Shown piece by piece: positions 7,423 through 32,859 of a DNA stretch of 64,000 bases. The notes under the pieces are model-generated. The model did not search any database and was not told the DNA's origin. It saw nothing but the letters and a program-made list of their open reading frames with translations. The stretch comes from Chloroflexota bacterium (GTDB lineage Bacteria > Chloroflexota > Anaerolineae > Anaerolineales > Villigracilaceae). The DNA lies in contig JACAEM010000022.1 of assembly GCA_013388855.1 (NCBI GenBank), positions 1 through 64,000 of the forward strand, in the 5' to 3' direction. Both the position numbers and the translations under genes were made by a program. Position 1 is the stretch's first letter, and each line of letters starts with the position of its first letter.

Positions 7423-7433
7423 ATTGGGTTTCC

Positions 7434-8304: not shown

Positions 8305-8328
8305 CTGCATCAGCCAAAGGATATTCAA

Positions 8329-10080: not shown

Positions 10081-10081
10081 T

Positions 10082-10321
10082 ATGAAGAATCCATTCGGCG
10101 ACCAACAAGTCCCCGGGGCATATCACAACCTGAAAGAGCGGATATACAAAAGGGTTTCGGCGGGTGTCAATGACCGGATATTTGGAATGGCGCAAAAGGC
10201 GTATGAACATGCGTTGAATGAAGAAAACATTGTCCTGAGCCGCCCGGAAAGAAAACGGTTGTTTTCACAGATCCTGAAACAAGTGTTGGAGGATGTACTG
10301 AAGAAGGCAGGTGGAACGTGA
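10082..10321 (+). CDS. Small hypothetical protein
   Basis: A 79-residue charged, mainly helical soluble protein that I do not recognise. It is basic and contains a segment of alternating K/R and E residues (SRPERKRLFSQILKQVLEDV). It begins 1 base after the polX stop codon and its TGA overlaps the GTG of the next gene (GTGA), so it is embedded in the polX operon and very probably expressed. A DNA-repair link is only guilt by association. Confidence 0.7.
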   Translation: MKNPFGDQQVPGAYHNLKERIYKRVSAGVNDRIFGMAQKAYEHALNEENIVLSRPERKRLFSQILKQVLEDVLKKAGGT

Positions 10322-10539
10322 ACGAGCCGATATCCAGGCGCAAACTTTTTATCATTGCCAGTGCCATCGATGTCCTTCTCAGCGGCATCGTACTGTTGAT
10401 CTATTTCGGTGTTCTCCCCGTCGATATTTCGGGTTGGGGCATTCCGCGCTGGGTGGTCGGCGCGGTCGGCGGGATATGGTTCCTGTCTGCGTTCGTCGTT
10501 CTGGCTTATCAACTCACACGGACGGACGGCTCCGAATAA
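10318..10539 (+). CDS. Small two-helix membrane protein
   Basis: A 73-residue protein with two predicted membrane helices (about residues 10-32 and 44-65) joined by a short loop. No family is recognised. The start is GTG, overlapping the previous stop by 4 bases, and the stop is 1 base before the ATG of the next gene, so translation coupling supports it being real. Confidence 0.7.
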   Translation: MNEPISRRKLFIIASAIDVLLSGIVLLIYFGVLPVDISGWGIPRWVVGAVGGIWFLSAFVVLAYQLTRTDGSE

Positions 10540-17890: not shown

Positions 17891-19108
17891 ATGTCTGTTC
17901 TAACCAACAAACACATCCTCCTCGGCGTGACCGGCTCCATCGCGGCGTACAAAGCCGCGGATCTGGCGTCCAAGCTCACACAGGCGGGCGCGCAGGTCGA
18001 TGTGATTCTCAGCGCGGCGGCGGAGAAGTTCGTCACGCCGCTCACCTTCCAATCGGTCACCGGTCGGCGCGCCTACAACGATGCCGATTTATGGGGTAAC
18101 GAAGCGCACGTCATCCATGTGGGTCTCGGGCACAAAGCCGACCTGCTCGTCATCGCCCCCTGCACGGCGAACACCATCGCCAAACTTGCACATGGGCAGG
18201 CGGATACGCTCCTTACCGTCACCGCGTTGGCGGCGCACTGTCCGCTCATGATCGCGCCCGCGATGGACGGCGGCATGTACGACCACCCCGCTACGCAGGA
18301 AAATCTCGATACGCTCCGCAAGCGCGGTGCGACAGTCATCGAACCCGCGGCGGGGCATCTTGCCTCTGGACTCGTGGGTGTGGGACGCCTGCCCGAAACC
18401 CATGAACTGCTCGGACACATCCGCCTCGCCCTCGGACATACCGGAGTGCTTGCCGATAAAAGGGTCGTTGTCACTGCCGGGGGGACTCAGGAACCGCTCG
18501 ATCCGGTCCGCGTGCTGACCAATCGCTCCTCCGGCAAACAAGGCTATGCACTCGCCCAGGCAGCGCTCGACGCGGGCGCGCAGGTCACGCTTATCACCAC
18601 CCCCACCATGTTGACTCCACCGGTCGGCGCGCAAGTCATCCAAGTGGAGACGGCAAAGCAAATGCTCGCCGCCGTGTTGAAAGAAGCCGAGGGAGCCGAC
18701 GCTCTCATCATGGCGGCGGCGGTGGCGGATTTCCGCCCGAAGAACGCCGCCAAGGACAAAATCAAGAAGGAAGGCGGGATTCCGCAGATCGAATTCGAAG
18801 CCACAGAGGACATCCTGAAAACGGTATCCGCCTCCGGCTTCGGCGAAGCGGGGAGGCGTCCGCGCGTGGTGGCGGGTTTTGCGGCTGAGTCTCAAAGCCT
18901 ATTGGAAAATGCGACAAATAAGTTAAAATCCAAGGGTCTGGACATGATTGCGGCGAACGACATTTCTGCCAGAGATGCAGGGTTCGCCGTCGAAACCAAC
19001 CGTATCACGCTGTTATTCAAAGATGGGCGCAGGGAATCGTTATCGTTAATGAGTAAGGCTGAGGTGGCTGAGATCATCATCGAACGTATTGCGGCTTTGC
19101 TGGAGTAG
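17891..19108 (+). CDS. coaBC: Phosphopantothenoylcysteine decarboxylase / phosphopantothenate-cysteine ligase
   Basis: A 405-residue bifunctional coenzyme A biosynthesis enzyme. The N-terminal CoaC flavoprotein domain has GVTGSIAAYK, the catalytic histidine in AHVIHVGL and the ANTIAK motif. The C-terminal CoaB domain starts near residue 190 (VVVTAGGTQEPLDPVR) and has the AVADFRP and KDKIKKE motifs that hold CTP. In CoaC the substrate-binding motif is usually PxMNxxMW; here it reads PAMDGGMY with aspartate at residue 126 where asparagine is normally catalytic. The start has no ribosome site but a TATAAT 6 bases before it, so it is probably translated leaderless. Confidence 0.95.
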   Translation: MSVLTNKHILLGVTGSIAAYKAADLASKLTQAGAQVDVILSAAAEKFVTPLTFQSVTGRRAYNDADLWGNEAHVIHVGLGHKADLLVIAPCTANTIAKLAHGQADTLLTVTALAAHCPLMIAPAMDGGMYDHPATQENLDTLRKRGATVIEPAAGHLASGLVGVGRLPETHELLGHIRLALGHTGVLADKRVVVTAGGTQEPLDPVRVLTNRSSGKQGYALAQAALDAGAQVTLITTPTMLTPPVGAQVIQVETAKQMLAAVLKEAEGADALIMAAAVADFRPKNAAKDKIKKEGGIPQIEFEATEDILKTVSASGFGEAGRRPRVVAGFAAESQSLLENATNKLKSKGLDMIAANDISARDAGFAVETNRITLLFKDGRRESLSLMSKAEVAEIIIERIAALLE

Positions 19109-19109
19109 A

Positions 19110-19841
19110 ATGCGCATTCTGGTTATCTCCGATATACATGCCAATTACACCGCCCTCGAAGCGGTACTCAAGGATGCGGGAGAAGTGGATGAGACCTGGT
19201 GCCTGGGCGATATGGTGGGATATGGTCCCGACCCGAACGCAGTGGTCGAGGAGATCCGCGAGATCAAGAATCTTACCTGTCTGCTCGGCAACCACGACGT
19301 GGCAGTCATCGGCAAGATCCCCTTCGAGGCCTTCAACGGCGATGCGCGCCGCACACTGGAATATCATGAACGCGTGCTGACCGCCAGTAACATGGACTTT
19401 TTACGTTCGCTCACCTCCAACCTGAAGGTGCGCGAGGATGCCAGTCTGGTACACGGAAGCCCGCGCGATTCGGTCTGGGAGTATATTTTGAACACGCTGT
19501 CGGCGCGGCTGAACTTCGACCATTTCACGACGCCCTGGTGTTTGGTGGGACATTCGCACCTGCAGTGCATGTTTCATCTCGATGAGCAGAACGACCGTGT
19601 GAGTCTCAAGCCGATCAGGGCGGGGGAACGCATCCAACTTCAGCCGAGGCTGATCATGAACCCCGGTTCGGTGGGGCAACCCCGCGACCGCGACCCGCGC
19701 TCCGCCTACGCCATCTACGACAGCGAATCCAAAACCTGGGAGCCGCGCCGCGTGGAATATAACATTGCCGAAGTGCAGCGGCGCATCCGCGAAGCCGGGC
19801 TGCCGGAGAAACATGCCGTGAGGATCGCCGAGGGGTGGTGA
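19110..19841 (+). CDS. YfcE/MJ0936-type metallophosphoesterase
   Basis: A 243-residue calcineurin-like phosphoesterase. Metal ligands are in SDIHANYTALEAVL, GDMVGYGPDPN, GNHD and GHSHLQ. Relatives of this type hydrolyse phosphodiesters, often cyclic nucleotides, with Mn or Ni; substrate unknown. ATG 19110 was chosen because the protein then begins directly with the MRILVISDIH strand; it lies 1 base after the coaBC stop. A reading-frame start 21 bases upstream overlaps coaBC. Confidence 0.9.
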   Translation: MRILVISDIHANYTALEAVLKDAGEVDETWCLGDMVGYGPDPNAVVEEIREIKNLTCLLGNHDVAVIGKIPFEAFNGDARRTLEYHERVLTASNMDFLRSLTSNLKVREDASLVHGSPRDSVWEYILNTLSARLNFDHFTTPWCLVGHSHLQCMFHLDEQNDRVSLKPIRAGERIQLQPRLIMNPGSVGQPRDRDPRSAYAIYDSESKTWEPRRVEYNIAEVQRRIREAGLPEKHAVRIAEGW

Positions 19842-19850
19842 CTCTCGTCC

Positions 19851-19896
19851 TCCCCCAACTTCCAACGAATTTCAGTTGGAAGTTGGGGAGAGTTTT
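19851..19896 (+). terminator. Terminator-like inverted repeat after the phosphoesterase gene
   Basis: A long stem (CTCCCCCAACTTCCAAC with GTTGGAAGTTGGGGAG, one bulge) around an 8-base loop, followed by AGAGTTTT. It ends the coaBC unit. Confidence 0.65.
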
Positions 19897-19977
19897 CGGG
19901 AGGGGGATAGGAACTTTTCAGGAAGCGATTCGTCTGTAAGGTGAAATCATCTTACGTCGAATGAAGGAGTCAAGACT

Positions 19978-20964
19978 ATGAAACGCCCATTAATGATCAT
20001 CTTTTCGGTGGTTGGAGTATTTTTGCTCATCAGCTTTTTGTTTATGAGCGCCCTGGGACCCAGAGTTGGAAATACTTTTAGTAATGTTTCGCGCGATCTT
20101 GGATATGGCGGTGGCGGAGCAGCGCCCGAATTGTATGCCGCGGAAGAACCCGCAGCGGCCCCCATGGTTTACAACGACTCCGGTCAGTTTGTAACCAGTA
20201 ACGATGCGGACATTGCCCAACAGGTGGAGCGTAAGGTCATCAAGAACGCCGATCTGGCTGTCGTGGTGAAAGACCCGGAAGAAAGCATGAAATCCATTGC
20301 CGCGCTCGCAGAGAAATTGGGAGGCTATGTCGTCTCGTCGAATCTGTACCAGTCCAGTTATGGACCAAACAACATCCCCGTGCCGGAAGCCAGCGTTTCC
20401 ATCCGCATCCCTGCCGAGAAACTGACCGAGGTCCTGGAAATGATCAAAAAGGATGCTGTCGAAGTCGAGCATGAGAACATCTCCGGGCAGGATGTCACAG
20501 ATCAATACGTGGACCTGACTTCCCGCCTGACCGCCAAACAGGCGGCTGAGAAGAAATTGCTTGAGATTCTGGAACAAGCCACCGAGACCGAGGATGTACT
20601 CGCCGTTTACCAGCAGTTGCAACAAATCCAGAGCGAGATCGAAGTGCTGAAAGGACAGATCAAGTACATCGACGAATCCGCGGCGATGTCGTCGGTCAGT
20701 GTACGTTTGATCGCGGACGAAACCGTCCAGCCCATCGAAATCGGCGGCTGGAAATTGCAGGGAACCGCCAAGGAAGCCATCGAGGACCTCGTCTTCTTCA
20801 CGCAGAGTTTTACCCGCTTCCTGATCCGCTTTGTGATTTACATCCTGCCTTCGTTGATCTTGATCGCCATTCCGCTGTATCTGGTCTATCGCGGCGGGCG
20901 CGCCCTGTTCCGCAGGTTTGGCAGGGCTAAGACGGCAGAGTCCGTGAAAGAAGAAAAGAAGTAG
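19978..20964 (+). CDS. DUF4349 membrane protein
   Basis: A 328-residue protein with an N-terminal signal/anchor helix (about 5-25), a DUF4349 domain (about 80-270: KNADLAVVVKDPEES, GGYVVSS, SIRIPAEKL, ISGQDVTDQYVDL, followed by a coiled coil around residues 180-225) and a C-terminal membrane helix (about 275-305). The ring is probably outside the membrane; the family function is unknown, though it resembles periplasmic envelope-stress proteins. Ribosome site AAGGAG precedes the ATG. Confidence 0.85.
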   Translation: MKRPLMIIFSVVGVFLLISFLFMSALGPRVGNTFSNVSRDLGYGGGGAAPELYAAEEPAAAPMVYNDSGQFVTSNDADIAQQVERKVIKNADLAVVVKDPEESMKSIAALAEKLGGYVVSSNLYQSSYGPNNIPVPEASVSIRIPAEKLTEVLEMIKKDAVEVEHENISGQDVTDQYVDLTSRLTAKQAAEKKLLEILEQATETEDVLAVYQQLQQIQSEIEVLKGQIKYIDESAAMSSVSVRLIADETVQPIEIGGWKLQGTAKEAIEDLVFFTQSFTRFLIRFVIYILPSLILIAIPLYLVYRGGRALFRRFGRAKTAESVKEEKK

Positions 20965-20980
20965 CCCCATCTTCAGCATG

Positions 20981-21019
20981 AGACCTGACAGGTTTCCAAA
21001 AGGACCTGTCAGGTCTTTT
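20981..21019 (+). terminator. Terminator of the DUF4349 gene
   Basis: AGACCTGACAGGT (20981-20993) and ACCTGTCAGGTCT (21004-21016) form a 13-bp stem with a following TTTT. The GACCTGACAGGT sequence is a common dispersed palindrome in some bacteria, so it may be mobile. Confidence 0.8.
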
Positions 21020-21021
21020 GA

Positions 21022-21051
21022 TTTACATCACACCGAGCAAGCATGTATAAT
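21022..21051 (+). promoter_or_regulatory. Probable leaderless promoter of rsmG
   Basis: TTTACA (21022-21027), 18 bases, then TATAAT (21046-21051). The rsmG ATG at 21060 is 8 bases after the -10, so the transcript would start at the start codon. There is no ribosome site. Confidence 0.65.
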
Positions 21052-21059
21052 TCCAAACA

Positions 21060-21770
21060 ATGGAAAAACTCATCCACGACGCGCAGGCATTGTTCAACAT
21101 TCACATCACGGGGAGACAGGTGATGTCGCTCATCACCTACGAAAAAGAATTGCTGGAATGGAATCAAAAATTCAACCTGACCGCCATCCGCGATGTGGAA
21201 TCCATCCGCACCAAACATTTCCTCGATTCGTTCTCGTGCGTGCTGGCATGGAAAACCTCGCCGCCCAACCATCTCATCGATGTGGGCACAGGCGCGGGGT
21301 TTCCCGGTCTTCCCTTGAAAATTCTTTATCCAAACATGAAACTGACGCTGGTCGAATCCGTCGGCAAGAAAGCCATGTTCTGCCAGCACATCGTTTCCGT
21401 GCTGGGGTTGGCGAATGTGGAGGTCATCCAGGCGCGTGCCGAGGTGCTGGGGCAGGAGGAAAGTTACCGCGAAAAATATGACTGGGCCGTGGCGCGTGCC
21501 GTGGCAAACTTGAATGTCTTGAGCGAATTTTTACTGCCGCTCGTCAAAATGAACGGTGCAATGCTTGCCCAAAAAGGCGAAAACGGCCCTGCTGAAGCGC
21601 AGTCCGCGGAACATGCCATGAAATTATTGGGTGGGAAATTGAGACAAGTGATCCCCGTCAATTTGCCGGGCGTGGCGGATGAGCGTTATCTCATTCTCGT
21701 AGAAAAGGTCGCGGCGACGCCTCCCAAATATCCGCGTAAGCCGGGGATTCCAGGGAAAATGCCATTATAA
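21060..21770 (+). CDS. rsmG: 16S rRNA (guanine-527-N7)-methyltransferase RsmG
   Basis: A 236-residue RsmG/GidB that methylates G527 of 16S rRNA with S-adenosylmethionine. Visible motifs: NQKFNLTAIRD, HFLDSF, DVGTGAGFPGLPLKIL (motif I), VESVGKKAMF and ARAVANLNVL. Length matches the family (about 210-240). The protein ends with a proline- and basic-rich tail (PPKYPRKPGIPGKMP), also usual. The ATG at 21060 appears leaderless. Confidence 0.95.
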   Translation: MEKLIHDAQALFNIHITGRQVMSLITYEKELLEWNQKFNLTAIRDVESIRTKHFLDSFSCVLAWKTSPPNHLIDVGTGAGFPGLPLKILYPNMKLTLVESVGKKAMFCQHIVSVLGLANVEVIQARAEVLGQEESYREKYDWAVARAVANLNVLSEFLLPLVKMNGAMLAQKGENGPAEAQSAEHAMKLLGGKLRQVIPVNLPGVADERYLILVEKVAATPPKYPRKPGIPGKMPL

Positions 21771-21800
21771 ATTTTTGGGTAATTCATCGAATCTCCCGAT

Positions 21801-22166
21801 TCAACAACTATTTTCATCCACAATCGTGATCTTGTCTTCCTTGTTGGGAATAATGCACAGGAACTCAAACGGCTCGTCTCCCGTGTTCTGATATGAATGA
21901 ACTACGCCCTCAGGGATGAAAACAACATCCCCTGTTTTGACATGATGCGTTTCACCGCCGATGGTGATCGTCGCTTCACCGCGCAGGACATATTGCTCGT
22001 GTTCGAGCGTGTTGGTGTGACGCGGCATTCCGCCGCCCGGCTGCATGGAAAACTTCCGCAAGGCAAAGTTGGGGCCTTCCTGCGAGGAGATCAGGACCTG
22101 GATGGTCGTGTCCTTCCCGGCAGCGACATTTTTCGCTTCGACATCGGCCGAATGTTTGACTGGCAT
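21801..22166 (-). CDS. Cupin-domain protein
   Basis: A 121-residue single-domain cupin. The first motif reads MPRHTNTLEHEQYVLRGEA and the second GDVVFIPEGVVHSYQNTGDE, with the metal-binding His/Glu set (H in RHTNTLEHE, H in VVHS) present. Such small cupins are often sensors or mannose-6-phosphate isomerase-like enzymes; function unknown. ATG 22166 is preceded by GGAG at the right distance; upstream extensions are unlikely. It is the last minus-strand gene after the PP2C gene. Confidence 0.85.
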   Translation of the reverse strand: MPVKHSADVEAKNVAAGKDTTIQVLISSQEGPNFALRKFSMQPGGGMPRHTNTLEHEQYVLRGEATITIGGETHHVKTGDVVFIPEGVVHSYQNTGDEPFEFLCIIPNKEDKITIVDENSC

Positions 22167-22236
22167 GGTAATCTCCATTTCTCCGTGGTTGCAAGGGCAG
22201 TGTCCATCCGCCCGAAGGCTTCTCCTCGCAACGACA

Positions 22237-23334
22237 TCAAGGGTTAACTGTATTCGTAGGCCACGGCGTATAGGTTGGGGCGACAGGCAACGGTTCCGCC
22301 GTGGCAGTCGGGAGGGCGGGTAAAGGAGACTCCGTCGGTGATGGGAACGGAGTCTCGGTAACAAGTGCAGATGGAAGAACGGTCGGGGTGAAGGTGGAGG
22401 GCGGGTTCCGCCTCATCAGGCTGAAGGTCAGGATGGAAGCGGCGACGAGGACGAACATCAATCCCGCCACGCCTCCGATCACCCATGGAAGCCAGTCCGA
22501 ATCCTTTTTTTTTGTCTTCAATTTGAAATCGGACGGCACCGAGATCAGGATGACCGTGATGTTGTCGTGACCGCCGCGCGAATTTGCCAGATCGACCAGC
22601 GCACGCGCCGCTTCCTTCAAAGTGGGTTTGGCGCGCACGATTTCAAGAATCTCGTCGTTCCAGACCAGGTCGGTCAGCCCGTCGCTGCATAGCAACAACA
22701 CATCGTTCGGCAGGAGTTGCGCCCCCTGATTGCCGTCGGCATTCCGGTCGCCCTCACCGTCGAACCACTTCAATCGGAAATCCGGGTCGGGCGGGACGGG
22801 CGATCCCAAATACCGGCGGATGACATGCACATTCGGGTGTTCACGCGCCAGTTCGGGGGTCAGGATGCCCTTCTCGATGGCCTCCTGCACCCACGTGTGA
22901 TCGGTCGTCAATTGCTGGATACGTCCGGAGCGCATGAGGTAGATTCGCGAATCCCCCACGTAACTGGTGTACAGCCTGTCGCCGATGATCCACGCCGTGG
23001 CGCAGGTCGAGCCCATGCCTTTCAGATCGTCGTTCGTCGCGGAATGCGCGGCAATCGCCTCGCTGGCTTCCCCCACCGCAGTCTCCATGGTCTGGCGCGT
23101 GTGCTTCCCGTCACTCTTCGCGACCGCCTGCATAATGTAATTCACCGCCAGTTCCGCCGCCACCTCCCCGCCGCGGTGCCCGCCGATGCCATCCGCCAAC
23201 ACGGCAAACAACACCGGCATCCTATCCTCCAGCATGAACGAAGCCACGGCATAGCGATCCTCGTTGTTCTTGCCCGTCATGCCGGGGTGCGACTGGGCTT
23301 CGACGTTCAGGTGCGCGCGCGATACACGATTCAT
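22237..23334 (-). CDS. PP2C-family serine/threonine phosphatase
   Basis: A 365-residue protein with an N-terminal PP2C domain (about 10-260) and a C-terminal single membrane helix (about 282-305) followed by a proline/threonine-rich, probably extracellular tail. Metal and catalytic motifs are all present: RYAVASF, ADGIGGHRGGE, GSTCATAWI, CSDGLTDLV and GGHDNITVI. It dephosphorylates Ser/Thr-phosphorylated proteins, probably those recognised by the FHA domain of the preceding gene, which it overlaps by 4 bases. No kinase is encoded in the window. Confidence 0.93.
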   Translation of the reverse strand: MNRVSRAHLNVEAQSHPGMTGKNNEDRYAVASFMLEDRMPVLFAVLADGIGGHRGGEVAAELAVNYIMQAVAKSDGKHTRQTMETAVGEASEAIAAHSATNDDLKGMGSTCATAWIIGDRLYTSYVGDSRIYLMRSGRIQQLTTDHTWVQEAIEKGILTPELAREHPNVHVIRRYLGSPVPPDPDFRLKWFDGEGDRNADGNQGAQLLPNDVLLLCSDGLTDLVWNDEILEIVRAKPTLKEAARALVDLANSRGGHDNITVILISVPSDFKLKTKKKDSDWLPWVIGGVAGLMFVLVAASILTFSLMRRNPPSTFTPTVLPSALVTETPFPSPTESPLPALPTATAEPLPVAPTYTPWPTNTVNP

Positions 23335-25244
23335 AAAGTGGATGATTTCTTGACGATGACCTTCGGTTTGGACTCAGCCGGAGGCTGGCTCAGATTAAAA
23401 CGATATGCCAGCTGCCCAAAATGGATTCTGTCTCCGTGCGACAGGCGGCGTCCCTCGCGGGTGACGGGCTCATAGTTCACCCACGTACCCGCGACCGAAC
23501 CATGATCGTAAATAATGAAAACACCGTCATCCATCTGTTTGATACGGGCATGCAGAGGCGAAATGGACGGGTCATCCAGCACCCGCACCGATTGTACCGG
23601 GTCTGTTCCGAAAGTCATATCCTTTTCCAACACGGGAATGGGCGCAGTACTGGCAGGTTCGCCTCCATTCGTCAGGCGGATGAGATAGGCTGGGGCTTGC
23701 GGCACACGAGCCTGTCGGGAGGCAAGCCAACCCATGCGGCGCGGCTCCGTTTTGCTCTTCTTTTTAGCAGAGTTGACGGGCTCCGTCAATGCCACAACAG
23801 GCTGGGTAACCGGGTCTTCGAAACGCTTCTTTTTCTCGCGTCTGCGCCGCCCAAGCCGGGCGCCAAGTCCACCGCGCAGGAGGATGGCAAACAGGGCAAG
23901 CCCCGCCAGGGCAATTGCCCCCAGGACGAGTTGGGAACGGTAACGCGCCAGCAAAGCCTGCACGCCGCGCGGCGGCTGGATCACGGTCAGTCTGACTATA
24001 GTACCCATGCTCGATTTTTTCAAACCGAGCACATCCTCCGCTTCCACCACAATGGTATGTTGACCGCTTTCGTTATAGAGGCTCAGGTCCCACACGAACC
24101 GGTCAAACGGTGCGGATGTGTTCTCAGCGACGAGTTGACCGTCCACATACAGGGCTGTGCGAGTCAGGTCGCGTTTGTGCCCGTCGGGAAATTCCACAAT
24201 GATCCCAATGGGCTGTTCCATTGGTTCCAGGGCTTCCGCGTTATACGGGTCCTCCGCGGGCGGTTGACGCGTGATCTGCAGCGGCGGCGAAAGGAAGATC
24301 GGGTTGGGCGGCTGAATATCCACGCTGAAGGTTTTGTCCAGCGCAGGGATCTGCCCATCGGGAGTATCGACATAGATGCCAAGGGTGTGATCGCCGGAAG
24401 TCGAGAGCGAGGATGTGTACTTCACGGCATAGATATGCCGCAACGGAGCGAGATACAGGTTCGGGTCCGGGAACGGCTCCTTTCCTGAAAACGTGAAGAA
24501 AGAGCCGCCGGATTGTTGTGCAATGGATTTGAACGCGTTGGCGCTGGCGGAGACGAAAAAACTCTCTGCATCCACAAACCAGACAAAGACACGAATCTTC
24601 GAGTCGACGGCGCGCTGGATAAGCGGCGCGATGTTGTTGTCGATGTTCGGGTCGTCCATGTGAGGCGTGACAAACAGGACCGCGCGTTTCATCCCGGGCT
24701 GCGGCGTGGATGCGCTGACCGTATCCAAGGCAATGGCAAGGGTTTGCAGATTGGGCACCGTGTTGCGGAAATCGGGCTTGAACGAGTTGAGACTGACCGC
24801 CCAGTCATTGGCGCCCGCGTGACTGATGAGCGCACCCGATAACGAGACCAGGCTCAGGTCGTCGTTCGAATCCTCCGGCAGGGAGGTGATCCACTGTGTC
24901 AACGCCTGCGTCACGCGATCCATGCGCGGGGTGCCTGTGCCATCACGCACCGCCAGCGGCGGTCCCGGATTGATGGCGACCACAATCTGCACCGGCAGAG
25001 GAATCCGCGTCACCGAATCGACCATGCGGGGCTGGCTGTCTTCGTAGGCAGTCATATCGGCGGGTTTTAGTCCATCGATAAACTGACCATTCGCGTCGTA
25101 CACATCCACGAGCGCGGCGATTTGCGGGAATCCGCCTGCGTCAATGGAGGCAATCTCCGCGTATGCCGCGGCTTGAGCGCGGACAGAGGTTCCGGGCGCG
25201 GCAAGCAGGCAAAGGCTGAGAAAGAACGCAAGGAATCTACGCAT
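23331..25244 (-). CDS. Membrane protein with VWA-like domain and C-terminal FHA domain
   Basis: A 637-residue protein. Residues 1-23 form a signal peptide. Residues about 35-300 resemble a von Willebrand A domain, but the metal-binding DxSxS is replaced (VVAINPG), so a normal MIDAS is not expected. A middle region (about 300-430) follows, then a membrane helix (about 435-455), a basic cytoplasmic stretch and a C-terminal FHA domain (about 540-620: FGTDP, ISPLHARI, GTWVNYEPV) that should bind phosphothreonine. It therefore links an outside domain to an inside phosphopeptide reader. It overlaps the phosphatase gene (ATGA) and the preceding membrane-protein gene by 8 bases. Confidence 0.85.
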   Translation of the reverse strand: MRRFLAFFLSLCLLAAPGTSVRAQAAAYAEIASIDAGGFPQIAALVDVYDANGQFIDGLKPADMTAYEDSQPRMVDSVTRIPLPVQIVVAINPGPPLAVRDGTGTPRMDRVTQALTQWITSLPEDSNDDLSLVSLSGALISHAGANDWAVSLNSFKPDFRNTVPNLQTLAIALDTVSASTPQPGMKRAVLFVTPHMDDPNIDNNIAPLIQRAVDSKIRVFVWFVDAESFFVSASANAFKSIAQQSGGSFFTFSGKEPFPDPNLYLAPLRHIYAVKYTSSLSTSGDHTLGIYVDTPDGQIPALDKTFSVDIQPPNPIFLSPPLQITRQPPAEDPYNAEALEPMEQPIGIIVEFPDGHKRDLTRTALYVDGQLVAENTSAPFDRFVWDLSLYNESGQHTIVVEAEDVLGLKKSSMGTIVRLTVIQPPRGVQALLARYRSQLVLGAIALAGLALFAILLRGGLGARLGRRRREKKKRFEDPVTQPVVALTEPVNSAKKKSKTEPRRMGWLASRQARVPQAPAYLIRLTNGGEPASTAPIPVLEKDMTFGTDPVQSVRVLDDPSISPLHARIKQMDDGVFIIYDHGSVAGTWVNYEPVTREGRRLSHGDRIHFGQLAYRFNLSQPPAESKPKVIVKKSSTL

Positions 25245-26148
25245 TTGCCTCGGTCGCCAGTACGGGGGTCTCCTGTGATTTTGTCAAGCGCATATAAGTG
25301 AGAGTCCATGCGGATTGCATGAAGGTCAGCAAGACGCCCTGGAAAACGGCATACAGCGGCGAGAAAGCCAGCATCCACAAGGTCATAGTTCTGTATATTT
25401 TGCTGAACGCTTCAAAATCCGGTTCGGTGCCTATGTTGGAGATGAAGCTGAACATGGGAATCATCATGGGTATAGAAATGATCATACCCACCACCATCGC
25501 CCCCAAATAGATGATGATGCTCATGAGCGCCATGATCCCCAGATTCTTTTTCACCAGTTCCCAGGCGCGGCGTAGAGCATCCATTACGCTCAGGTCATCC
25601 ACGATGATCGCGCTCATTCCGGTCTCCATGAGCGAAAAGACCAGAATCCCTATCGGGATAAAGAGGAAAAACAAAGGAAAGGCGCAAAGGACACCCATTC
25701 CCATTGTAACCACACTTAAAACGGCTATGCACGCCATGAATACCATCACAAACACGAACATACCCACCCACACCAGCAGGTACATTCCCAGGACCCGCCA
25801 GAAATAGGAAAAGGAATCGCGAATCAATCCTCCAAACGTCAAAACATCTTCCCCCCTTTCCACGCGGCGCGTCGCCAGCGATGGAATCGACATTCCAAGG
25901 ATGTAAAAGGGAATGGAGACAATACTCAATAGAAGAATCAAGCCATTCGCCAGCAGGATCGAGCCCATTTTCTGGTTTATTTCCGCCGGGTCGCTCACCA
26001 TGAACGACATGGGATCATTGAAGAGCAGGCTGATGGGCACAGAAAGCAAACCGAAAACAGCGATAACAATACCGGAAAGCCATAATATTTTATACTTCCA
26101 GGTGATCTGCCCGGCGCGGGTTAAAACTTCCCCAAAGTTGAAGTTCAT
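25237..26148 (-). CDS. Multi-span membrane protein
   Basis: A 303-residue integral membrane protein with about six hydrophobic segments and a low-charge loop pattern, resembling the membrane domain found in glycerophosphoryl-diester-phosphodiesterase-like and DUF975/YciC-like proteins. No catalytic motif is visible. ATG 26148 has AAAGGATTGGA upstream; the frame also opens at 26184 but without a ribosome site. It overlaps the FHA gene, so it is the first gene of a three-gene operon. Confidence 0.75.
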   Translation of the reverse strand: MNFNFGEVLTRAGQITWKYKILWLSGIVIAVFGLLSVPISLLFNDPMSFMVSDPAEINQKMGSILLANGLILLLSIVSIPFYILGMSIPSLATRRVERGEDVLTFGGLIRDSFSYFWRVLGMYLLVWVGMFVFVMVFMACIAVLSVVTMGMGVLCAFPLFFLFIPIGILVFSLMETGMSAIIVDDLSVMDALRRAWELVKKNLGIMALMSIIIYLGAMVVGMIISIPMMIPMFSFISNIGTEPDFEAFSKIYRTMTLWMLAFSPLYAVFQGVLLTFMQSAWTLTYMRLTKSQETPVLATEANA

Positions 26149-26174
26149 GTTCCAATCCTTTCCATCTGAAATCG

Positions 26175-27755
26175 TTATTCCCATTCGATTGTCGCAGGCG
26201 GTTTGCTCGTAATATCATACACCACGCGGTTGATTCCCGCCACTTCATTGACAATACGGCTCGAAATCTTTGCCAACAGGTCGTGCGGCAGGCGTGCCCA
26301 GTCGGCGGTCATGAAGTCGTCCGTCGTCACCGCGCGGATGGCAGCCGCCTCCTGATACGTCCGCTGGTCGCCCATCACACCCACCGAACGCTCCGAGAGC
26401 AGCACCACAAACGCCTGCGAAAGGACCGGCGGCTCCACCTTCAACGCGCCCGTGGCAGGGGTCCCTCCGGAATAGCGCCTGTTCAACAGCCCGGCATTGG
26501 ATAATTCCTCCAGCAGGATGGCATCCGCCGCCCGCAACCGGGACACGCGCTCACGCGTCACCTCCCCGAGACAGCGCACGGTCAAACCGGGACCTGGAAA
26601 CGGTTGCCGCCAAACCAGCGCTTCCGGCAACCCAAGCGCTTCGCCGACCGCCCGAACTTCATCTTTGAACAGATAGCGCAATGGCTCGACTAGTTCGAAC
26701 TGCATATCCTCCGGCAACCCGCCCACGTTATGATGCGTCTTGATCTTGTCAGCTTTGTTCCGGTCCGGCGCGGACGATTCCACCACATCGGGATAGATCG
26801 TCCCCTGCACGAGAAACTTTGGCTGTCCCAATTGCTTTGCCTGCTTCTCGAACACGCGAATGAACTTCTCACCGACGATCTTGCGCTTCTTCTCAGGGTC
26901 GGTGATTCCCTTTAAGGCAGAAAAAAATTCGTCCGCGGCATCCACGGCGATCAGTTCGGCATGCAGATTGTTTCGAAATGCGGAAGCCACCTGCTCCCCC
27001 TCGTTCTTGCGCAACAGGCCGGTATCCACGAAGACCGCCACAAGCTGATCGCCGATGGCGCGATGCACCAGCGCTGAAGCGACCGACGAATCCACGCCGC
27101 CGCTGACCGCCGCCAGGACGCGTTCGTGTCCCACCTGCTTTTGGATGCGTTCCACCGCCTCATCGATTATGGAGACAGGTGTCCAGTTGGGTCGAACGCC
27201 GCAAATATCGACGACGAAGTGCCGGAGCAGTTTGTGCCCGTTGGGAGTGTGATTCACTTCGGGGTGGAATTGCACGCCAAAGTATTTGCGTTTCATGTCG
27301 CCCATCGCCGCAAAGGGACTGTTGCCCGTGCGCGCCAGCGCAATAAACCCCTCAGGCATGCGCGTGATCTTGTCGCCATGCGACATCCACACCTTCGAGA
27401 TGGCATCCAGCATAGTACCGGGAAGCAGTTTCTCGATCTCGGCATATCCATACTCGCGGCTGGAGGAGGCGTACACCTCCCCGCCCAGGGCGTGGGTCAT
27501 GGCCTGCATCCCGTAGCAGATGCCAAGGATGGGAAGACCCGTCTTGAAGATGAAATCCTGCACATAGGGAGCACCGGGCTCATAGACCGAGTTGGGTCCA
27601 CCTGAGAGGATGAATCCCTTCGGCGCGATGGAGAGAATCTTTTCCATGGGCGCATCCCAGGGAAATAACTCGCAATAAACCTGTGCCTCACGCACCCGCC
27701 GCGCAATGATCTGTGCATATTGAGAACCGAAATCGAGAATAGCAATGGAGTCCAT
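26175..27755 (-). CDS. guaA: GMP synthase (glutamine-hydrolysing)
   Basis: A 526-residue GMP synthase making GMP from XMP with ATP and glutamine. The N-terminal amidotransferase has the nucleophile in GICYGMQ and the partner histidine in GVQFHPEVNH. The ATP-pyrophosphatase loop SGGVDSSVA begins near residue 225, and the C-terminal dimerisation domain ends with the typical TSKPPATIEWE. It is followed by 27 bases then the membrane-protein gene, and lies after the HIT gene in a purine-related minus-strand run with xpt. Confidence 0.97.
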   Translation of the reverse strand: MDSIAILDFGSQYAQIIARRVREAQVYCELFPWDAPMEKILSIAPKGFILSGGPNSVYEPGAPYVQDFIFKTGLPILGICYGMQAMTHALGGEVYASSSREYGYAEIEKLLPGTMLDAISKVWMSHGDKITRMPEGFIALARTGNSPFAAMGDMKRKYFGVQFHPEVNHTPNGHKLLRHFVVDICGVRPNWTPVSIIDEAVERIQKQVGHERVLAAVSGGVDSSVASALVHRAIGDQLVAVFVDTGLLRKNEGEQVASAFRNNLHAELIAVDAADEFFSALKGITDPEKKRKIVGEKFIRVFEKQAKQLGQPKFLVQGTIYPDVVESSAPDRNKADKIKTHHNVGGLPEDMQFELVEPLRYLFKDEVRAVGEALGLPEALVWRQPFPGPGLTVRCLGEVTRERVSRLRAADAILLEELSNAGLLNRRYSGGTPATGALKVEPPVLSQAFVVLLSERSVGVMGDQRTYQEAAAIRAVTTDDFMTADWARLPHDLLAKISSRIVNEVAGINRVVYDITSKPPATIEWE

Positions 27756-27765
27756 GATTTATATG

Positions 27766-27812
27766 CCTCACCCCAACCCCTCTCCCTCGGGAAGAGGGGT
27801 AAGGGGTGAGGG
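27766..27812. repeat. Palindromic repeat forming the end of the HIT gene
   Basis: CCTCACCCCAACCCCTCTCCC and GGGAAGAGGGGTAAGGGGTGAGG form an inverted repeat. It carries the HIT gene's stop codon (27768-27770) and its last 14 or so codons. Confidence 0.85.
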
Positions 27813-28148
27813 CGATATCAAATGAAAATGCAATTGCGGAAAATCCTGATACTCCCCGCCGTTGACGATCAGCCGATAGGCAGGGAGATGAAATTCATCC
27901 ACCAGACTTTGCACGGTGGCATACAGATCGGTGAGAAAAGCAGAGTCGGCTGAGTCCAATTTACTCAACGACTCAACCGACTTCTTCGGCACCAGCAATA
28001 TGTGAAAAGCATACGATGGTTTAGGGTGGTGAAATGCCATCAATGTTTTCGTCTCGCGCAGGCGCTTCACAGGAATGGCAAAATTCATATGCTCAAACAT
28101 CCAGCCGATGAAACGCCTGAACCACGGATGCCATAACCATCTCCGCAC
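27768..28148 (-). CDS. HIT-family (histidine triad) protein with repeat-derived C-terminus
   Basis: A 126-residue histidine-triad protein. The core FHHPKPSYAFHILLVPKK and QLHFHLIS fit the family, though the first histidine of the triad motif is glutamine here (QxHxH). HIT proteins are nucleotide hydrolases or transferases. The last residues (SPSPLTPLPEGEGLG) are translated from a palindromic repeat, so the native C-terminus appears to have been replaced or extended. The start is a GTG (28148); an ATG at 28100 is an alternative. It lies between xpt and guaA in the same direction. Confidence 0.8.
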   Translation of the reverse strand: MRRWLWHPWFRRFIGWMFEHMNFAIPVKRLRETKTLMAFHHPKPSYAFHILLVPKKSVESLSKLDSADSAFLTDLYATVQSLVDEFHLPAYRLIVNGGEYQDFPQLHFHLISPSPLTPLPEGEGLG

Positions 28149-28180
28149 ATTAACCTTCCAACCCGCGAACCTTCAACTGT

Positions 28181-28771
28181 TTATGAAGGTTCGCCAAACA
28201 CAATTTTGTCATCTTTCATCGCCGTGATGCACGCCAGCGAATGGATCGGCACGCCCAGCGGCTTGAGCGCCTCGCGCCCCCCCTCGAAAAGTTTCTCGAT
28301 CAACGCGCCGATACCCACGATCCTCGAGCCGGATGCCTCTGCAAGCCTTGCCAGTCCTAGAATGGTCTGCCCGCTGGCAAGGAAGTCGTCGATGATCAAC
28401 ACTTTTTCGCCGTTCGCCAGATATTCCGGTGAGACGATCAACTCCACCATGCGTCCCTTCGTGTGCGAGGGCGCCAGGGTCAGATACACCTGATCCGGCA
28501 TGGTGATCGGTTTATGCTTGCGCGCATACACCACCGGCAGCCCCATATGCACCGCCGTTGTCACAGCCGGGGCAATACCCGAAATCTCGGCAGTCAGCAC
28601 TTTCGTCGCGCCGACCGAAGCGAAAAGCCGCGCAAATTCCCGCCCGCAGGCATCCATCAGTAGAGGGTCCACTTGATGATTGACGAAGCTATCCACCTTC
28701 AAAATTCCCCCGCCCAACACCCTGCCGTCCCGCAGGATCCGTTCTTCAAGTTCCTTCACAGCCGCCTCCAT
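28181..28771 (-). CDS. xpt: Xanthine phosphoribosyltransferase
   Basis: A 196-residue type I phosphoribosyltransferase that salvages xanthine to XMP. The PRPP loop is VLIIDDFLASGQT, followed by the family's EKLFEGGREALKPLG region and N-terminal ILKVDSFVNHQVDP. XMP is the substrate of GuaA, encoded two genes downstream, so the pair forms a direct salvage route to GMP. ATG 28771 is preferred to a TTG 15 bases upstream. The gap to the divergent maf gene is only 95 bases, leaving no room for a purine riboswitch. Confidence 0.93.
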   Translation of the reverse strand: MEAAVKELEERILRDGRVLGGGILKVDSFVNHQVDPLLMDACGREFARLFASVGATKVLTAEISGIAPAVTTAVHMGLPVVYARKHKPITMPDQVYLTLAPSHTKGRMVELIVSPEYLANGEKVLIIDDFLASGQTILGLARLAEASGSRIVGIGALIEKLFEGGREALKPLGVPIHSLACITAMKDDKIVFGEPS

Positions 28772-28830
28772 GAATAGAATAGACAAATTTTCATGATTCT
28801 ACAACCTCTGCCTCTGAATTGCAAACTCAC

Positions 28831-28858
28831 TTTTGCTTAATGCTGGCTGTGTTAGAAT
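28831..28858 (+). promoter_or_regulatory. Probable leaderless promoter of maf
   Basis: TAGAAT (28853-28858) lies 8 bases before the GTG at 28867; TTTTGC (28831-28836) 16 bases upstream is a weak -35. No ribosome site is visible. Confidence 0.45.
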
Positions 28859-28866
28859 CCTCACCC

Positions 28867-29514
28867 GTGAACCTGATCCTGGCATCCAACTCCCCGCGCC
28901 GCCGCCAACTCATTGGCCTGACCGGTTGGGAATTTACCGTCTCCGTTTCGGATGTGGACGAGAGCACGCACGAGAACGAATCGCCCGCCGAATACGTCTT
29001 AAGACTTGCGGAATCCAAAGCCCGCGCCGGGATGAGCCGCGCTCATGAGGATCAGTTCATCCTTGCAGCAGATACAACCGTGGTGGATGGATCGCACATC
29101 CTCGGCAAACCCATTGACGAGGCGGATGCGATGCGGATGCTGACTCAATTGCGCGGACGGACGCATCAGGTCTACACCGGACTGGCCCTGCTCCGAATGA
29201 GCGGTGGTCTGCTCCTGAAAGACCTCTGCGTCACCAATGTGCCCATGCGCGACTACTCCGATGAGGAAATCCGCGCCTACGTTGCCACCGGTGACCCGCT
29301 CGACAAGGCTGGAGCGTACGCCATCCAGCATGCGCAATTCCGTCCCGTCGCCCGCATGGACGGTTGCTATGCCAGCGTAATGGGACTCCCGTTGTGTCAT
29401 GTGGTGCGCCTGATGCAGAAGATGGGCATCGAGCCAAAAGCGAATGTGCCGGATAACTGTCAAAACTTGTTGGAATATGAATGTCCGGTTTTCGAGTCGA
29501 TATTAAGTGAATAA
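28867..29514 (+). CDS. maf: Maf-family nucleoside-triphosphate pyrophosphatase
   Basis: A 215-residue Maf/YhdE-type protein that hydrolyses dTTP, UTP or modified nucleotides. The N-terminal ILASNSPRRRQL loop, the catalytic DTTVVDG, the LRGRTHQVYTGLAL segment and DKAGAYAIQ are typical. The GTG at 28867 makes the protein start directly at the VNLILASNSPRR strand; ATG codons further upstream would add an atypical tail. The start codon is 8 bases after a -10 element, hence probably leaderless. Confidence 0.93.
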   Translation: MNLILASNSPRRRQLIGLTGWEFTVSVSDVDESTHENESPAEYVLRLAESKARAGMSRAHEDQFILAADTTVVDGSHILGKPIDEADAMRMLTQLRGRTHQVYTGLALLRMSGGLLLKDLCVTNVPMRDYSDEEIRAYVATGDPLDKAGAYAIQHAQFRPVARMDGCYASVMGLPLCHVVRLMQKMGIEPKANVPDNCQNLLEYECPVFESILSE

Positions 29515-29515
29515 T

Positions 29516-29618
29516 GTCATTGCAAGACTTGCGAGCCTTAAGGCAAGTGCATATCGAAGCAATCTCTCCTCAACAGGAGATTGCTTCGGACGAGCGAACG
29601 CCGTCCTCACAATGGCAT
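29516..29618. repeat. TCATTGCGAG-family palindromic repeat
   Basis: Starts AATGTCATTGCAAG, carries GAAGCAATCTCTCC and GGAGATTGCTTC as an internal stem, and ends CTCACAATGGCAT, an imperfect inverse of the start. Fills the gap between maf and the PBP gene. Confidence 0.75.
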
Positions 29619-29639
29619 GAATGAATCGAAAGGCAAAGA

Positions 29640-31886
29640 ATGAAATTTCTTCGTTGGTTAAACGTTATCGTCATCCTTACTTTTATCTCTGCCTGTAGTT
29701 CTGGAGGGATCGGCAATTCAGAGGTCCCCACCGAAACGCCCCTCCCTCCACCGGTTGTGGCAGTCACATCCGTGCCGGATGTCAATGCGGCGATCAGCGC
29801 TTACTTCGAGGCGTTCAAAATCGAAGACTATAACCTGATGTACAGTCTGTTGAGCAGGGACGTGCAGGCTGGTATTGCGCTGGAGGATTTCGCCAGACGC
29901 AACCGCGATGCTCTGAACACAATGAGTGCCGGTTCCTTCGATTACGAGGTCCTTTCGTCGCTGGTCAACCCCTACTCGGCAGAGGTCGCCTTCCGCATTA
30001 CCTATCACACCGCGTTGGTCGGCGATATTCAGCGCGAGATGGTTGCCCGCCTGACGCTTGAAGACAGCCAGTGGAAACTACAATGGAATGATGGACTCAT
30101 CCTGCCCGAATTGGCGGGCGGTAATATTCTCAAAATGGATTACGAAGTGCCGTCACGCGGCGAAATCTACGACCGCAACGGCAATCCGCTCGTGGCGCAG
30201 TCCGACGCGAACGCGTTTTACATCCTGCCCGGCAGTGTGACCGACGAAAGCTTGGGCACCCTGCTTTCCGAGGTCTGGCGGCTGTGCGGCATCAGCCAGG
30301 AAGAACTTGCGGACGAGATCTTCAACACACCGGCGCAATGGCCCATCCCGCTGTGCGAAGCCTCAAAGGATGAATCCGAGCGGATCACCTCCATCGCACC
30401 CAGCGGCTTGTTCTGGACCGAGTACAACGCGCGCTATTATTTCGAGCAGGGCGTCGGCTCCAACATCATCGGTTACACCCTCGGCATCGGACCGGAGGAA
30501 CTGGATAAATATCGCCGCCTTGGTTACGCGGGCGACGAGCGTGTGGGGAAAGCAGGCATTGAACAATGGGCGGAGGGATATCTCTCCGGTAAGCGCGGCG
30601 GTACCCTGTATGTCTTCACCCCGGACGGTTCGCAGATCGTCACCCGCATCGCGGAAAGCGCGCCAAAACCTGCTGATTCCGTGTATCTCACCATCGACCG
30701 CAACCTTCAATATTACGCCGAACAGGCCATCAAGGGTTTTACCGGCGCGGTCGTTGTGATGGAGCGCGATACCGGTCGTGTCCTTGCCATGGCGTCCTCG
30801 CCAAGCTTCGACGCGAACGCCTTCCAGCCCACCAACCCGAACAGCCAGAATCAGATTGCGGCGCTGAACCAGTTGAATTCCCCCCTCGTCAACCGCGCCG
30901 CGCAGGGACAGTACCCACTTGGTTCGGTATTCAAGATCATCACTATGGCGGCGGGCATGGAAAGCGGATTGTACATCCCTGAGACAACATTCGATTGTCA
31001 GTATGAATGGACAAAACTGCCGGACCGGGTCCGCTATGACTGGACGTGGCAACATTGCCAGGACCGGCTTGCGGCTGGGCTGGAATGTAACACCAGCGAC
31101 AGCACGCCGTCGGGTGTGCTCACACTTTCCGAAGGGCTGATGCGCTCCTGCAATCCATTCTTCTGGGACATTGGCTACACCCTCTATCAAAACAATCGCC
31201 CAAACGATATCGCCAATATGGCACGCGCCTTCGGACTGGGACAATTGACCGGCATCGAACAGATTGCCGAGAACCCTGGGCAGATCAATGATCCGAACAG
31301 CGACCCAATCGAGGTGGTCAATCAGGCAATCGGTCAAGGGACGGTACAGGTCACGCCGCTGCAAGTCGCGCGTTTCGTTGCCGCCATCGGTAATGGCGGC
31401 ACGTTGTTCCGTCCGCAACTGGTAGAGAAAATTCAGCCCGTTGAAGGTTCCCCGACCATTCTCTTCAAACCGGAAGCCCAGGGGACCCTGCCGCTCACGC
31501 CTGAACGGTTAAAGTTCATTCAGGATGCGATGATCAGCGTGGTCGAGGATTCGCGCGGCACTGCTAACTTCCGACTGCGCGGATTGAGCATCCCTGTGGC
31601 AGGCAAGACCGGCACCGCTGAGTCGGGCGATGTCAGACCGCATGCCTGGTTCGCGGGGTATACCATGGCGAGTGAAAACACCGGCCTGCCTGATATCGCC
31701 ATTGCCGTTATCCTCGAGTATGCGGGTGAAGGTTCGGATTATGCCGCGCCGGTCTTCAAACGCATTGTCGAGACTTATTATCTCGGCTCACCGCAAACGT
31801 TCTACTGGTTCGAATCGAACTTTGGCGTGACAAAGACCCCCACTCCGTTCGGCGGCATCCCGACCAGAACACCGAGGCCCAGATAG
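29640..31886 (+). CDS. Class B penicillin-binding protein (transpeptidase) with NTF2-like domain
   Basis: A 748-residue cell-wall transpeptidase that cross-links peptidoglycan. An N-terminal lipoprotein-type signal (ISAC, cysteine near residue 20) is followed by an NTF2/MecA-N-like domain (about 45-160), the PBP dimerisation domain (about 170-330) and the transpeptidase domain. Active-site motifs: S429-V-F-K432, S503-C-N505 and K656-T-G658. MecA-N-containing enzymes are often low-affinity for beta-lactams. The C-terminus is threonine/proline rich (TPTPFGGIPTRTPRP). Confidence 0.92.
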   Translation: MKFLRWLNVIVILTFISACSSGGIGNSEVPTETPLPPPVVAVTSVPDVNAAISAYFEAFKIEDYNLMYSLLSRDVQAGIALEDFARRNRDALNTMSAGSFDYEVLSSLVNPYSAEVAFRITYHTALVGDIQREMVARLTLEDSQWKLQWNDGLILPELAGGNILKMDYEVPSRGEIYDRNGNPLVAQSDANAFYILPGSVTDESLGTLLSEVWRLCGISQEELADEIFNTPAQWPIPLCEASKDESERITSIAPSGLFWTEYNARYYFEQGVGSNIIGYTLGIGPEELDKYRRLGYAGDERVGKAGIEQWAEGYLSGKRGGTLYVFTPDGSQIVTRIAESAPKPADSVYLTIDRNLQYYAEQAIKGFTGAVVVMERDTGRVLAMASSPSFDANAFQPTNPNSQNQIAALNQLNSPLVNRAAQGQYPLGSVFKIITMAAGMESGLYIPETTFDCQYEWTKLPDRVRYDWTWQHCQDRLAAGLECNTSDSTPSGVLTLSEGLMRSCNPFFWDIGYTLYQNNRPNDIANMARAFGLGQLTGIEQIAENPGQINDPNSDPIEVVNQAIGQGTVQVTPLQVARFVAAIGNGGTLFRPQLVEKIQPVEGSPTILFKPEAQGTLPLTPERLKFIQDAMISVVEDSRGTANFRLRGLSIPVAGKTGTAESGDVRPHAWFAGYTMASENTGLPDIAIAVILEYAGEGSDYAAPVFKRIVETYYLGSPQTFYWFESNFGVTKTPTPFGGIPTRTPRPR

Positions 31887-31953
31887 ACCATCCGCCACAG
31901 AAGTGCAGGCAGGAAATGCTCTGCATCGTCTGTAATTGGAACGATTGGAATTT

Positions 31954-32859
31954 GTGACAGATTCTTTCACACGCGGTTTAATCATCAAAGCCCAGTCCGG
32001 TTTCTTCACCGTGGAGACCGGATTGGGTCTTATTGTTTGTCAATTGCGCGGCAAGTTGAAGCAGGGACGCGCCGCTGGAGACATCGCAGCCATCGGCGAC
32101 AGGGTCGGCATCACGGTGTTGGCGGATGGGAGCGGGGTGATCGAAGAGGTCGAAAAACGGAAGCAAGCCATTGTCCGGCTCGACCCGAGACCTCAGGGCG
32201 AGTACCAACAAGTCCTGCTGGCAAATGCCGATCAGGCGGTTTTTGTCTTCGCGTGCGCGCATCCGAAACCCAAATTGAGGATGCTGGATCGTTTCCTCGT
32301 CATCGCCGAGAAACAACATGTGCCCGCCGTCATCGTGGCGAATAAGATCGATCTCGTGAAGGATGCGAGGAAAATTTTCGGCTTGTACGAACCGTTGGGG
32401 TATCGCGTGATCTACACTTCGACTCAAACCGGCGCGGGGATCGAGGAGCTGCACGGGGTATTGAAGAATAAAATTTCCGCCCTTGCCGGACCGAGCGGTG
32501 TGGGCAAGTCAAGTCTGCTCAACGCCATCCAGCCGGGGCTGGGACTCGCCGTCAATGAAATCAGCGCGGCGATGGGCAAGGGCAAACACACCACCGTCAC
32601 GCGGCAAATGTTCCCGCTGGCGGGCGGCGGTTATGTGGCGGATACGCCGGGATGGAAGTCACTGGCGTTGTGGGATACCGAACCCGAGGAGATGGAGGCG
32701 TATTTCCCCGAATTGCGCGATCTCGTGCAGCACTGTCAGTTCAGCGATTGCACACACACGCACGAGCCAAAGTGTGCGGTGATTGCCGCGGTAAAGGATG
32801 GACGTGTGCATCCGGAGCGATTTGATTCGTTCCTGCGATTGAGAGCGGGACAGGAATAG
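31954..32859 (+). CDS. rsgA: Ribosome small-subunit-dependent GTPase RsgA
   Basis: A circularly permuted GTPase (about 301 residues from this start) that assists late 30S ribosome assembly. The G4 motif ANKIDL precedes the G1 loop GPSGVGKSSLLN and G3 DTPGW, the order expected of RsgA. The C-terminal zinc motif holds the cysteines and histidine in CQFSDCTHTHEPKC. The start is uncertain: GTG 31954 is used, with in-frame TTG codons at 31936 and 31945 as alternatives; none has a clear ribosome site. Confidence 0.93.
   Translation: MTDSFTRGLIIKAQSGFFTVETGLGLIVCQLRGKLKQGRAAGDIAAIGDRVGITVLADGSGVIEEVEKRKQAIVRLDPRPQGEYQQVLLANADQAVFVFACAHPKPKLRMLDRFLVIAEKQHVPAVIVANKIDLVKDARKIFGLYEPLGYRVIYTSTQTGAGIEELHGVLKNKISALAGPSGVGKSSLLNAIQPGLGLAVNEISAAMGKGKHTTVTRQMFPLAGGGYVADTPGWKSLALWDTEPEEMEAYFPELRDLVQHCQFSDCTHTHEPKCAVIAAVKDGRVHPERFDSFLRLRAGQE

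Follow-up and report, generated by a model that had tools for sequence, protein, structure and literature searches.

Can a signal at the bacterial envelope be handled by a Ser/Thr phosphatase that has no kinase encoded beside it? This question is raised by three overlapping genes at positions 22237 to 26148 of the window, by which we mean the whole stretch of 64,000 nucleotides that was analyzed (contig JACAEM010000022.1 of assembly GCA_013388855.1, from a Chloroflexota bacterium of the class Anaerolineae). On the minus strand, they encode a polytopic membrane protein, a protein with a VWA-like and an FHA domain (VWA-FHA protein), and a PP2C-type Ser/Thr phosphatase. A sequence-only reading had taken them for the parts of a Ser/Thr phosphorylation switch without an adjacent kinase. 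The parts list was right and the module is real and conserved, but the phosphate-reading role is unsupported: as judged from the sequence, the FHA domain has Thr547 where a phosphothreonine reader should carry an arginine (Arg), and 98 of the 105 closest homologues likewise have neither Arg nor Lys there. The module appears to be a derivative stripped of its kinase, in which a putatively active membrane PP2C is paired with an adaptor that carries a pseudo-FHA domain and a degenerate metal ion-dependent adhesion site (pseudo-MIDAS).

The FHA domain occupies residues ~537-616 of the VWA-FHA protein (23397-23636, minus strand). Pfam recognized it over the cut-off (58.6 bits), and Foldseek aligned it to FHA structures (e.g., 6hc1, TMt 0.83). 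For FHA domains in general, the available part of the source names those of the GR, SxxH, and NG motifs as the binding residues (PMC1262709). In the window, these positions read G546-T547, S562-P-L-H565, and A585-G586. We split 157 homologues at a profile score of 620, a value that we set, into 105 inner and 52 outer sequences; their open reading frames (ORFs) were taken from the first start codon and may be too long. In the inner homologues, the GR-Arg column held Thr (57), Ser (19), Ala (17), Arg (5), Asn (2), Lys (2), Ile (1), Gln (1), or Cys (1), whereas Arg was present in 49/52 outer homologues. The Ser of SxxH was kept in 73 inner sequences and the His in 104, both being present in the window (Ser562 and His565). 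The NG column showed Ala in 103 inner sequences and Ser in 2, but 58 of the 105 had come only via an FHA-apex pattern demanding Ala or Ser there. To account for this bias, the other 47 were counted apart: the Arg column held Thr (26), Ser (9), Ala (6), Arg (3), Asn (2), or Gln (1), so that 44/47 were without Arg or Lys, and Ala stood at the NG column in 47/47, with a PP2C gene in 42. The same genome offers a further comparison, since it contains nine FHA matches, namely, the window's own and eight others. GR was found in 8/8 of the others, and NG, read by eye, at the expected place in 6/8. The NG column of the outer homologues was mixed (Asn 12, Ser 22, Ala 7, others 11). Because Asn is thus often missing in GR-bearing relatives too, we regard Arg as the telling residue.

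The altered apex is itself strongly conserved, as G-[TSA]-D-P-x-Q ... S-[VI]-A-G-T-W-V-N-Y. G546, D580, G586, W588, and N590 were invariant in the 105 inner sequences, although for 58 of these the fetch pattern had required the last three. Mean pairwise identity among the inner sequences was 54% for the FHA domain and 53% for the Ig-like part, the two highest values among the parts measured, compared with 43% for the VWA part, 43% for the following beta part, 39% for the transmembrane (TM) helix, and 29% for the linker. The FHA domain is thus not in decay but carries a newly conserved apex, which argues for a retained binding role other than canonical phosphothreonine reading. For such FHA proteins, the fold score alone is a poor ground for annotation as phosphothreonine readers.

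The remainder of the VWA-FHA protein (23331-25244, minus strand, 637 amino acids [aa]) consists of a signal peptide, a VWA-like ectodomain, a beta-sandwich/Ig-like part, and one TM helix ahead of the cytoplasmic FHA domain. An AlphaFold2 model from 65 sequences (mean predicted local distance difference test score [pLDDT], 88.7) showed a helix at the N terminus, followed by the ectodomain (~28-421), the TM helix (436-457), a linker of low confidence, and the FHA domain (~519-618). Hydropathy also placed the TM helix at ~436-457 (23874-23939, minus strand), and we took the FHA side as cytoplasmic because a basic stretch comes after this helix. The Ig-like beta domain (residues ~341-422; 23979-24224, minus strand) matched Pfam Big_7 below the cut-off and showed strands in the model. 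Residues 82-270 (24435-25001, minus strand) were modeled with a VWA fold, with Z scores of 17.5 to 19.1 to VWA domains over 164 to 184 residues among the 50 matches listed. The sequence profiles barely register this fold: Pfam VWA gave no match at E up to 0.1, and NCBIfam VWFA gave a weak one (24.6 bits). N92-P-G-P-P stands in place of the DxSxS motif, which was absent from 105/105 inner and 45/52 outer homologues, and the column of the MIDAS Asp held Asn in 100/105 inner but Asp in 45/52 outer homologues. The modeled ectodomain thus has a real VWA fold without the canonical metal site, which, together with the FHA domain, bears out the earlier description of a degenerate VWA outside and an FHA inside. 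In another genome of the same genus, the VWA-FHA gene (L082:7237-9169, genome G015) is split into two overlapping frames.

The PP2C (22237-23334, minus strand, 365 aa) has a catalytic part at ~9-266, a TM helix at ~280-308 according to hydropathy, and a Pro/Thr-rich tail at 309-365, which makes it C-terminally TM anchored. It matched Pfam PP2C over the cut-off (66.4 bits), whereas its NCBIfam Stp1 score of 207.8 bits fell under the equivalog cut-off of 230, so we call it Stp1-like and do not file it as Stp1. The nearest solved sequences were bacterial PP2Cs (5iti, at 144 bits, and 2j82), Stp1 (2pk0), and PstP (2cm1). The acidic motif residues D26, D48, D218, and D257, which we take to be the PP2C metal-site residues, were kept in 49, 49, 48, and 48 of 49 aligned sequences, respectively. 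On these grounds, the enzyme appears active, with an intact-looking metal site, and the sequence-only claim of a membrane-anchored PP2C seems sound. A defense system was considered and rejected; PADLOC gave only a weak match of the PP2C (19.3 bits).

The order of the genes, the conservation of which in Chloroflexota the sequence-only reading had proposed to check, is maintained. PP2C followed VWA-FHA directly in 97 of the 105 distinct inner homologues; in 60 of these loci, the genes share the 4-base overlap seen in the window, and in 82 they lie within 60 bases. That reading had made its case depend jointly on this order and on phosphothreonine-binding FHA residues: the order held, and at the level of sequence a key residue is gone. 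VWA-FHA homologues were found in 58/61 genomes searched, including 37/37 of the window's family, in 91/298 genomes drawn from the class (E up to 1e-20), and in 29/301 drawn from the phylum (E up to 1e-40), 29/29 of the latter lying inside the class. The named loci, which are the best 80 of 194 retrieved with the FHA-apex pattern, had titles that were mostly Anaerolineae/Anaerolineales or unplaced Chloroflexi metagenome-assembled genomes, plus one Herpetosiphon sp. With homologues and gene order conserved, chance ORFs were rejected as an explanation. A different arrangement was observed in eight outer class members (L192, L194, L195, L198, L200, L202, L203, and L226), which have two VWA-FHA paralogues in opposite orientation, mostly adjacent; profile searches found a PP2C in L226 only and a kinase in none of these loci.

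Where, then, are the kinases? None is adjacent, as had been claimed: the sole Pkinase match on the module's contig (C24:66879-67628) lies ~41 kb away. The search for Ser/Thr kinases elsewhere that had been suggested gave 13 Pkinase matches in the genome versus 2 PP2Cs by each of two models, SpoIIE-type phosphatases being left out of the count. With a profile built from 8 of these 13 kinases, which may miss remote ones, we detected a kinase within 5 kb of 22/52 outer homologues versus 1/105 inner homologues, and the GR Arg was present in 22/22 of those outer homologues. In L094 and L206, genes for a kinase-FHA protein, an FHA protein, a kinase, and a PP2C stand in a row, as confirmed with Pfam. 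This cassette of kinase-FHA, VWA-FHA, TM kinase, and PP2C, which occurs elsewhere in the class, has a common ancestry with the module. The TM kinase of L094 had clear relatives in 5/5 chosen cassette genomes, the query's own included (230 to 928 bits). With matches listed at E up to 1e-20 and a threshold of 150 bits that we set, 5 of the 61 genomes were above it (159 to 928 bits), all from the same order but outside the family (24 such genomes). By contrast, the 37 family genomes gave no orthologue-level match, the best score being 110 bits and that of the window's own genome 87 bits; a cassette kinase merely relocated within the family is therefore unsupported. In one of the five genomes with a clear match (G049), the cassette kinase adjoins a second VWA-FHA-like match on contig C35; the two forms thus coexist in some genomes.

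A separate cluster was seen elsewhere in the window's genome (L104, within C36:33001-48000 at ~5491-10435). It contains a kinase with repeats that appear PQQ-like by eye, the second PP2C, without an evident TM helix, a DnaJ-VWA protein with DxSxS, and a zinc-ribbon FHA protein with GR. This cluster appears to be the module's counterpart in the cytosol.

The simplest account of these distributions is a loss of the cassette kinase in the window's family, although a gain in other lineages would also be possible, as the tree is unrooted; we infer that the kinase-bearing form is ancestral. With kinship ignored, the state of the Arg column and the presence of a kinase within 3 kb were associated in the 119 of 157 rows that remained after 38 had been left out for short flanks: neither Arg nor Lys and no kinase, 76; neither residue with a kinase, 0; Arg or Lys without a kinase, 22; and Arg or Lys with a kinase, 21. 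However striking this table looks, it does not count as independent evidence. A tree of 99 of the 157 proteins, for which the FHA columns were excluded, requires 8 changes of Arg (at least 4 being forced by the starred branches) and 5 of kinase adjacency; the link between kinase and Arg rests on few evolutionary events. What can fairly be said is that a kinase is almost never present in the inner clade and that the Arg state has changed more than once. Our reading of the unrooted tree is that kinase absence probably came early and that Arg was lost later, more than once.

Several observations weigh against a kinase-stripped module with a noncanonical FHA domain. A test of independent pairs on the tree was not significant (4 pairs, p = 1). 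For 22 proteins bearing Arg or Lys, no kinase was detected within 3 kb, which means that Arg loss cannot be predicted from the absence of a kinase, and conversely L088, an inner homologue without Arg, has a kinase within 5 kb. Arg or Lys still occupies the GR-Arg position in 7/105 inner homologues, and the Asn of NG does not discriminate, being found in 12/52 outer homologues and in 7/22 of those with a kinase. Loss of the MIDAS extends beyond the inner clade, since full DxSxS occurs in only 7/52 outer homologues. Finally, no PP2C was seen at 8/105 inner loci (at one of them, L124, because the contig ends), and the gene for the polytopic protein went undetected in 28/105, some of which have short flanks.

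The gene order, the folds, the residue losses, the intact PP2C motif residues, and the absence of a cassette TM-kinase match in the family are what a mechanism has to accommodate. We propose an envelope module in which the VWA-FHA protein would serve as a single-pass, receptor-like adaptor with an ectodomain of VWA fold that lacks the metal site. Its FHA domain, devoid of the phosphothreonine-binding Arg, would most likely bind a partner independently of phosphate, and the co-encoded PP2C, which we infer from the gene order, would be the first candidate for that partner. In response to a cue from outside, the adaptor might position or gate PP2C at the membrane, where the phosphatase would have as its targets the substrates of kinases that the genome encodes separately; the polytopic protein may have a role as well. 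We give this proposal about an even chance. A stronger version, in which a cassette that lost its kinases became a phosphatase receptor, with an outside-facing protein whose one-time phosphothreonine reader serves as a phosphate-independent docking domain in direct control of the membrane PP2C and with an envelope signal consisting of regulated dephosphorylation alone, is a possibility that we advance more tentatively. In Stp1/PstP-type signaling, outside input usually occurs at the kinase; RsbU/RsbP/SpoIIE-type proteins, which have other domain designs, are known to take input through a PP2C-like phosphatase. A conserved module that retains the phosphatase and a receptor-like protein, with neither the kinase nor the phosphate-reading Arg, would be a natural test of whether envelope signals can enter via a Stp1-like phosphatase.

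Other explanations have to be weighed against this adaptor model. One is that the protein is structural and helps to assemble an envelope complex, as the degenerate FHA parts of EssC or YscD do, and that PP2C is merely a co-transcribed general phosphatase. YscD has an FHA domain of the phospho-independent kind, and the window's FHA part also matched Yop-YscD_cpl in Pfam (38.8 bits) and the YscD structures 4a0e and 4d9v in Foldseek. The EssC FHA domains likewise lack phosphothreonine-recognition residues, according to the part of the source at hand (PMC4925161). Against such a scaffold stands the constancy of the PP2C neighbor: this gene is kept beyond the family and is present at 13/15 inner loci that have 4 kb or more of upstream sequence but no guaA in it; moreover, no secretion gene was found among the nine window proteins scanned around the module. 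We consider this explanation unlikely. The same 13 loci also speak against the idea that a guaA operon was passively inherited in one lineage, with genes that act separately. Such linkage could be suspected from the presence of guaA upstream on the same strand in 78/105 inner loci, yet VWA-FHA and PP2C also stay together in the kinase cassettes of other families, which makes mere passengers very improbable.

The canonical switch, as the sequence-only reading had it, would have the FHA domain read phosphothreonine on the substrate of a kinase whose gene lies elsewhere, with PP2C resetting the mark. The intact FHA fold, the retention of Ser562 (73/105) and His565 (104/105), the 13 kinases of the genome, and the active-looking PP2C are all compatible with it, and the loss of the NG Asn alone says little, given that this residue varies even in GR-bearing relatives. 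What counts against such a switch is that Arg is lost in 98/105 inner homologues and the Ser of SxxH in 32/105, whereas GR is retained in 8/8 of the genome's other FHA matches. We regard it as rather improbable, somewhat more so than a scaffold, and retain phosphate-independent adaptor binding as the preferred reading.

The genomic setting of the module is in line with its earlier description as three overlapping genes directly behind guaA. The GMP synthase gene guaA (26175-27755, minus strand; NCBIfam, 757.3 bits) is a conserved upstream neighbor that we treat as context, outside the proposed mechanism. In 78/105 inner loci, it was found on the same strand no more than 6.5 kb upstream; it was absent from 15 with at least 4 kb of upstream sequence and undecided in 12. 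The gene for the polytopic protein (25237-26148, minus strand, 303 aa from the supported start) overlaps the VWA-FHA gene by 8 bases. Its longest ORF begins at 26184, but we prefer the ATG at 26148 because the homologue consensus opens with MNFNFGEV and an AAAGGA-like site lies ahead; this start is 26 bases past the guaA stop and leaves no overlap with guaA. On the other side, a cupin gene (21801-22172, minus strand) lies ~65 bases beyond PP2C; it occurs at that place in most loci of the window's genus and in none of the compared loci of other genera. RNA control was considered and rejected, as no Rfam match was obtained in 18000-32000 of the window at E up to 1, and a promoter/terminator scan (7 versus 3.9 and 10 versus 7.3 expected) was given no weight.

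The polytopic protein was modeled by AlphaFold2 as all helical (pLDDT, 90.3), and its fold had no PDB match at E up to 0.001. In Pfam, the window protein matched only DUF7847, a family of unknown function, below the cut-off, while 58 aligned members gave DUF7544 in 40 cases, DUF7847 in 33, and GPDPase_memb in 12 at E up to 0.01. The gene was detected within 8 kb in 77/105 inner loci, in one to four copies; it is duplicated just upstream of VWA-FHA in L050, L051, L054, L056, L154, and others, with the maximum of four copies in L154. The protein diverges fast, with mostly ~28-40% identity to the window's within the genus, where VWA-FHA proteins show 58-73%.

We found no published description of such a combination in the open-license literature, but several known systems share parts of it; those from cited sources are compared as far as the available parts of these sources go. 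In the threonine phosphorylation pathway of type VI secretion (PpkA, PppA, and Fha), an FHA protein and a PP2C also operate with the inner membrane, a VWA domain is part of PpkA (PMC1262709), and TagF can bind Fha and act via it independently of the phosphorylation pathway (PMC5995506). The window module differs in having no adjacent PpkA-type kinase, in combining a VWA-like and an FHA domain in one membrane protein, and in lacking the FHA Arg. In Mycobacterium tuberculosis, FHA genes cluster with kinases and a phosphatase (PMC1262709), and PstP is a TM PP2C (PMC12088040); PstP is among the closest solved sequences to the window's PP2C, whereas the module has no kinase. Conflict systems usually link their kinase gene to an active PP2C and to a vWA gene that stands alone (PMC7159879). 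Those sets are GTPase centered and contain a kinase, unlike the kinase-less module, in which the vWA domain is fused to a TM helix and an FHA domain. Precedents for an FHA fold without phosphate-binding residues are EssC, afadin, and KIF13: the afadin FHA domain binds SCRIB PDZ1 without phosphate, and KIF13 is mentioned likewise (PMC9355967). They belong to unrelated systems, for which the passages available report no PP2C partner. The kinase cassettes of other Anaerolineae (L094, L095, L189, L206, L228, and others) share homologous genes with the module, VWA-FHA followed by PP2C in the same order, and differ from it in that they contain kinase genes and an FHA domain with GR..SxxH, whereas the window module is without a TM-kinase gene.

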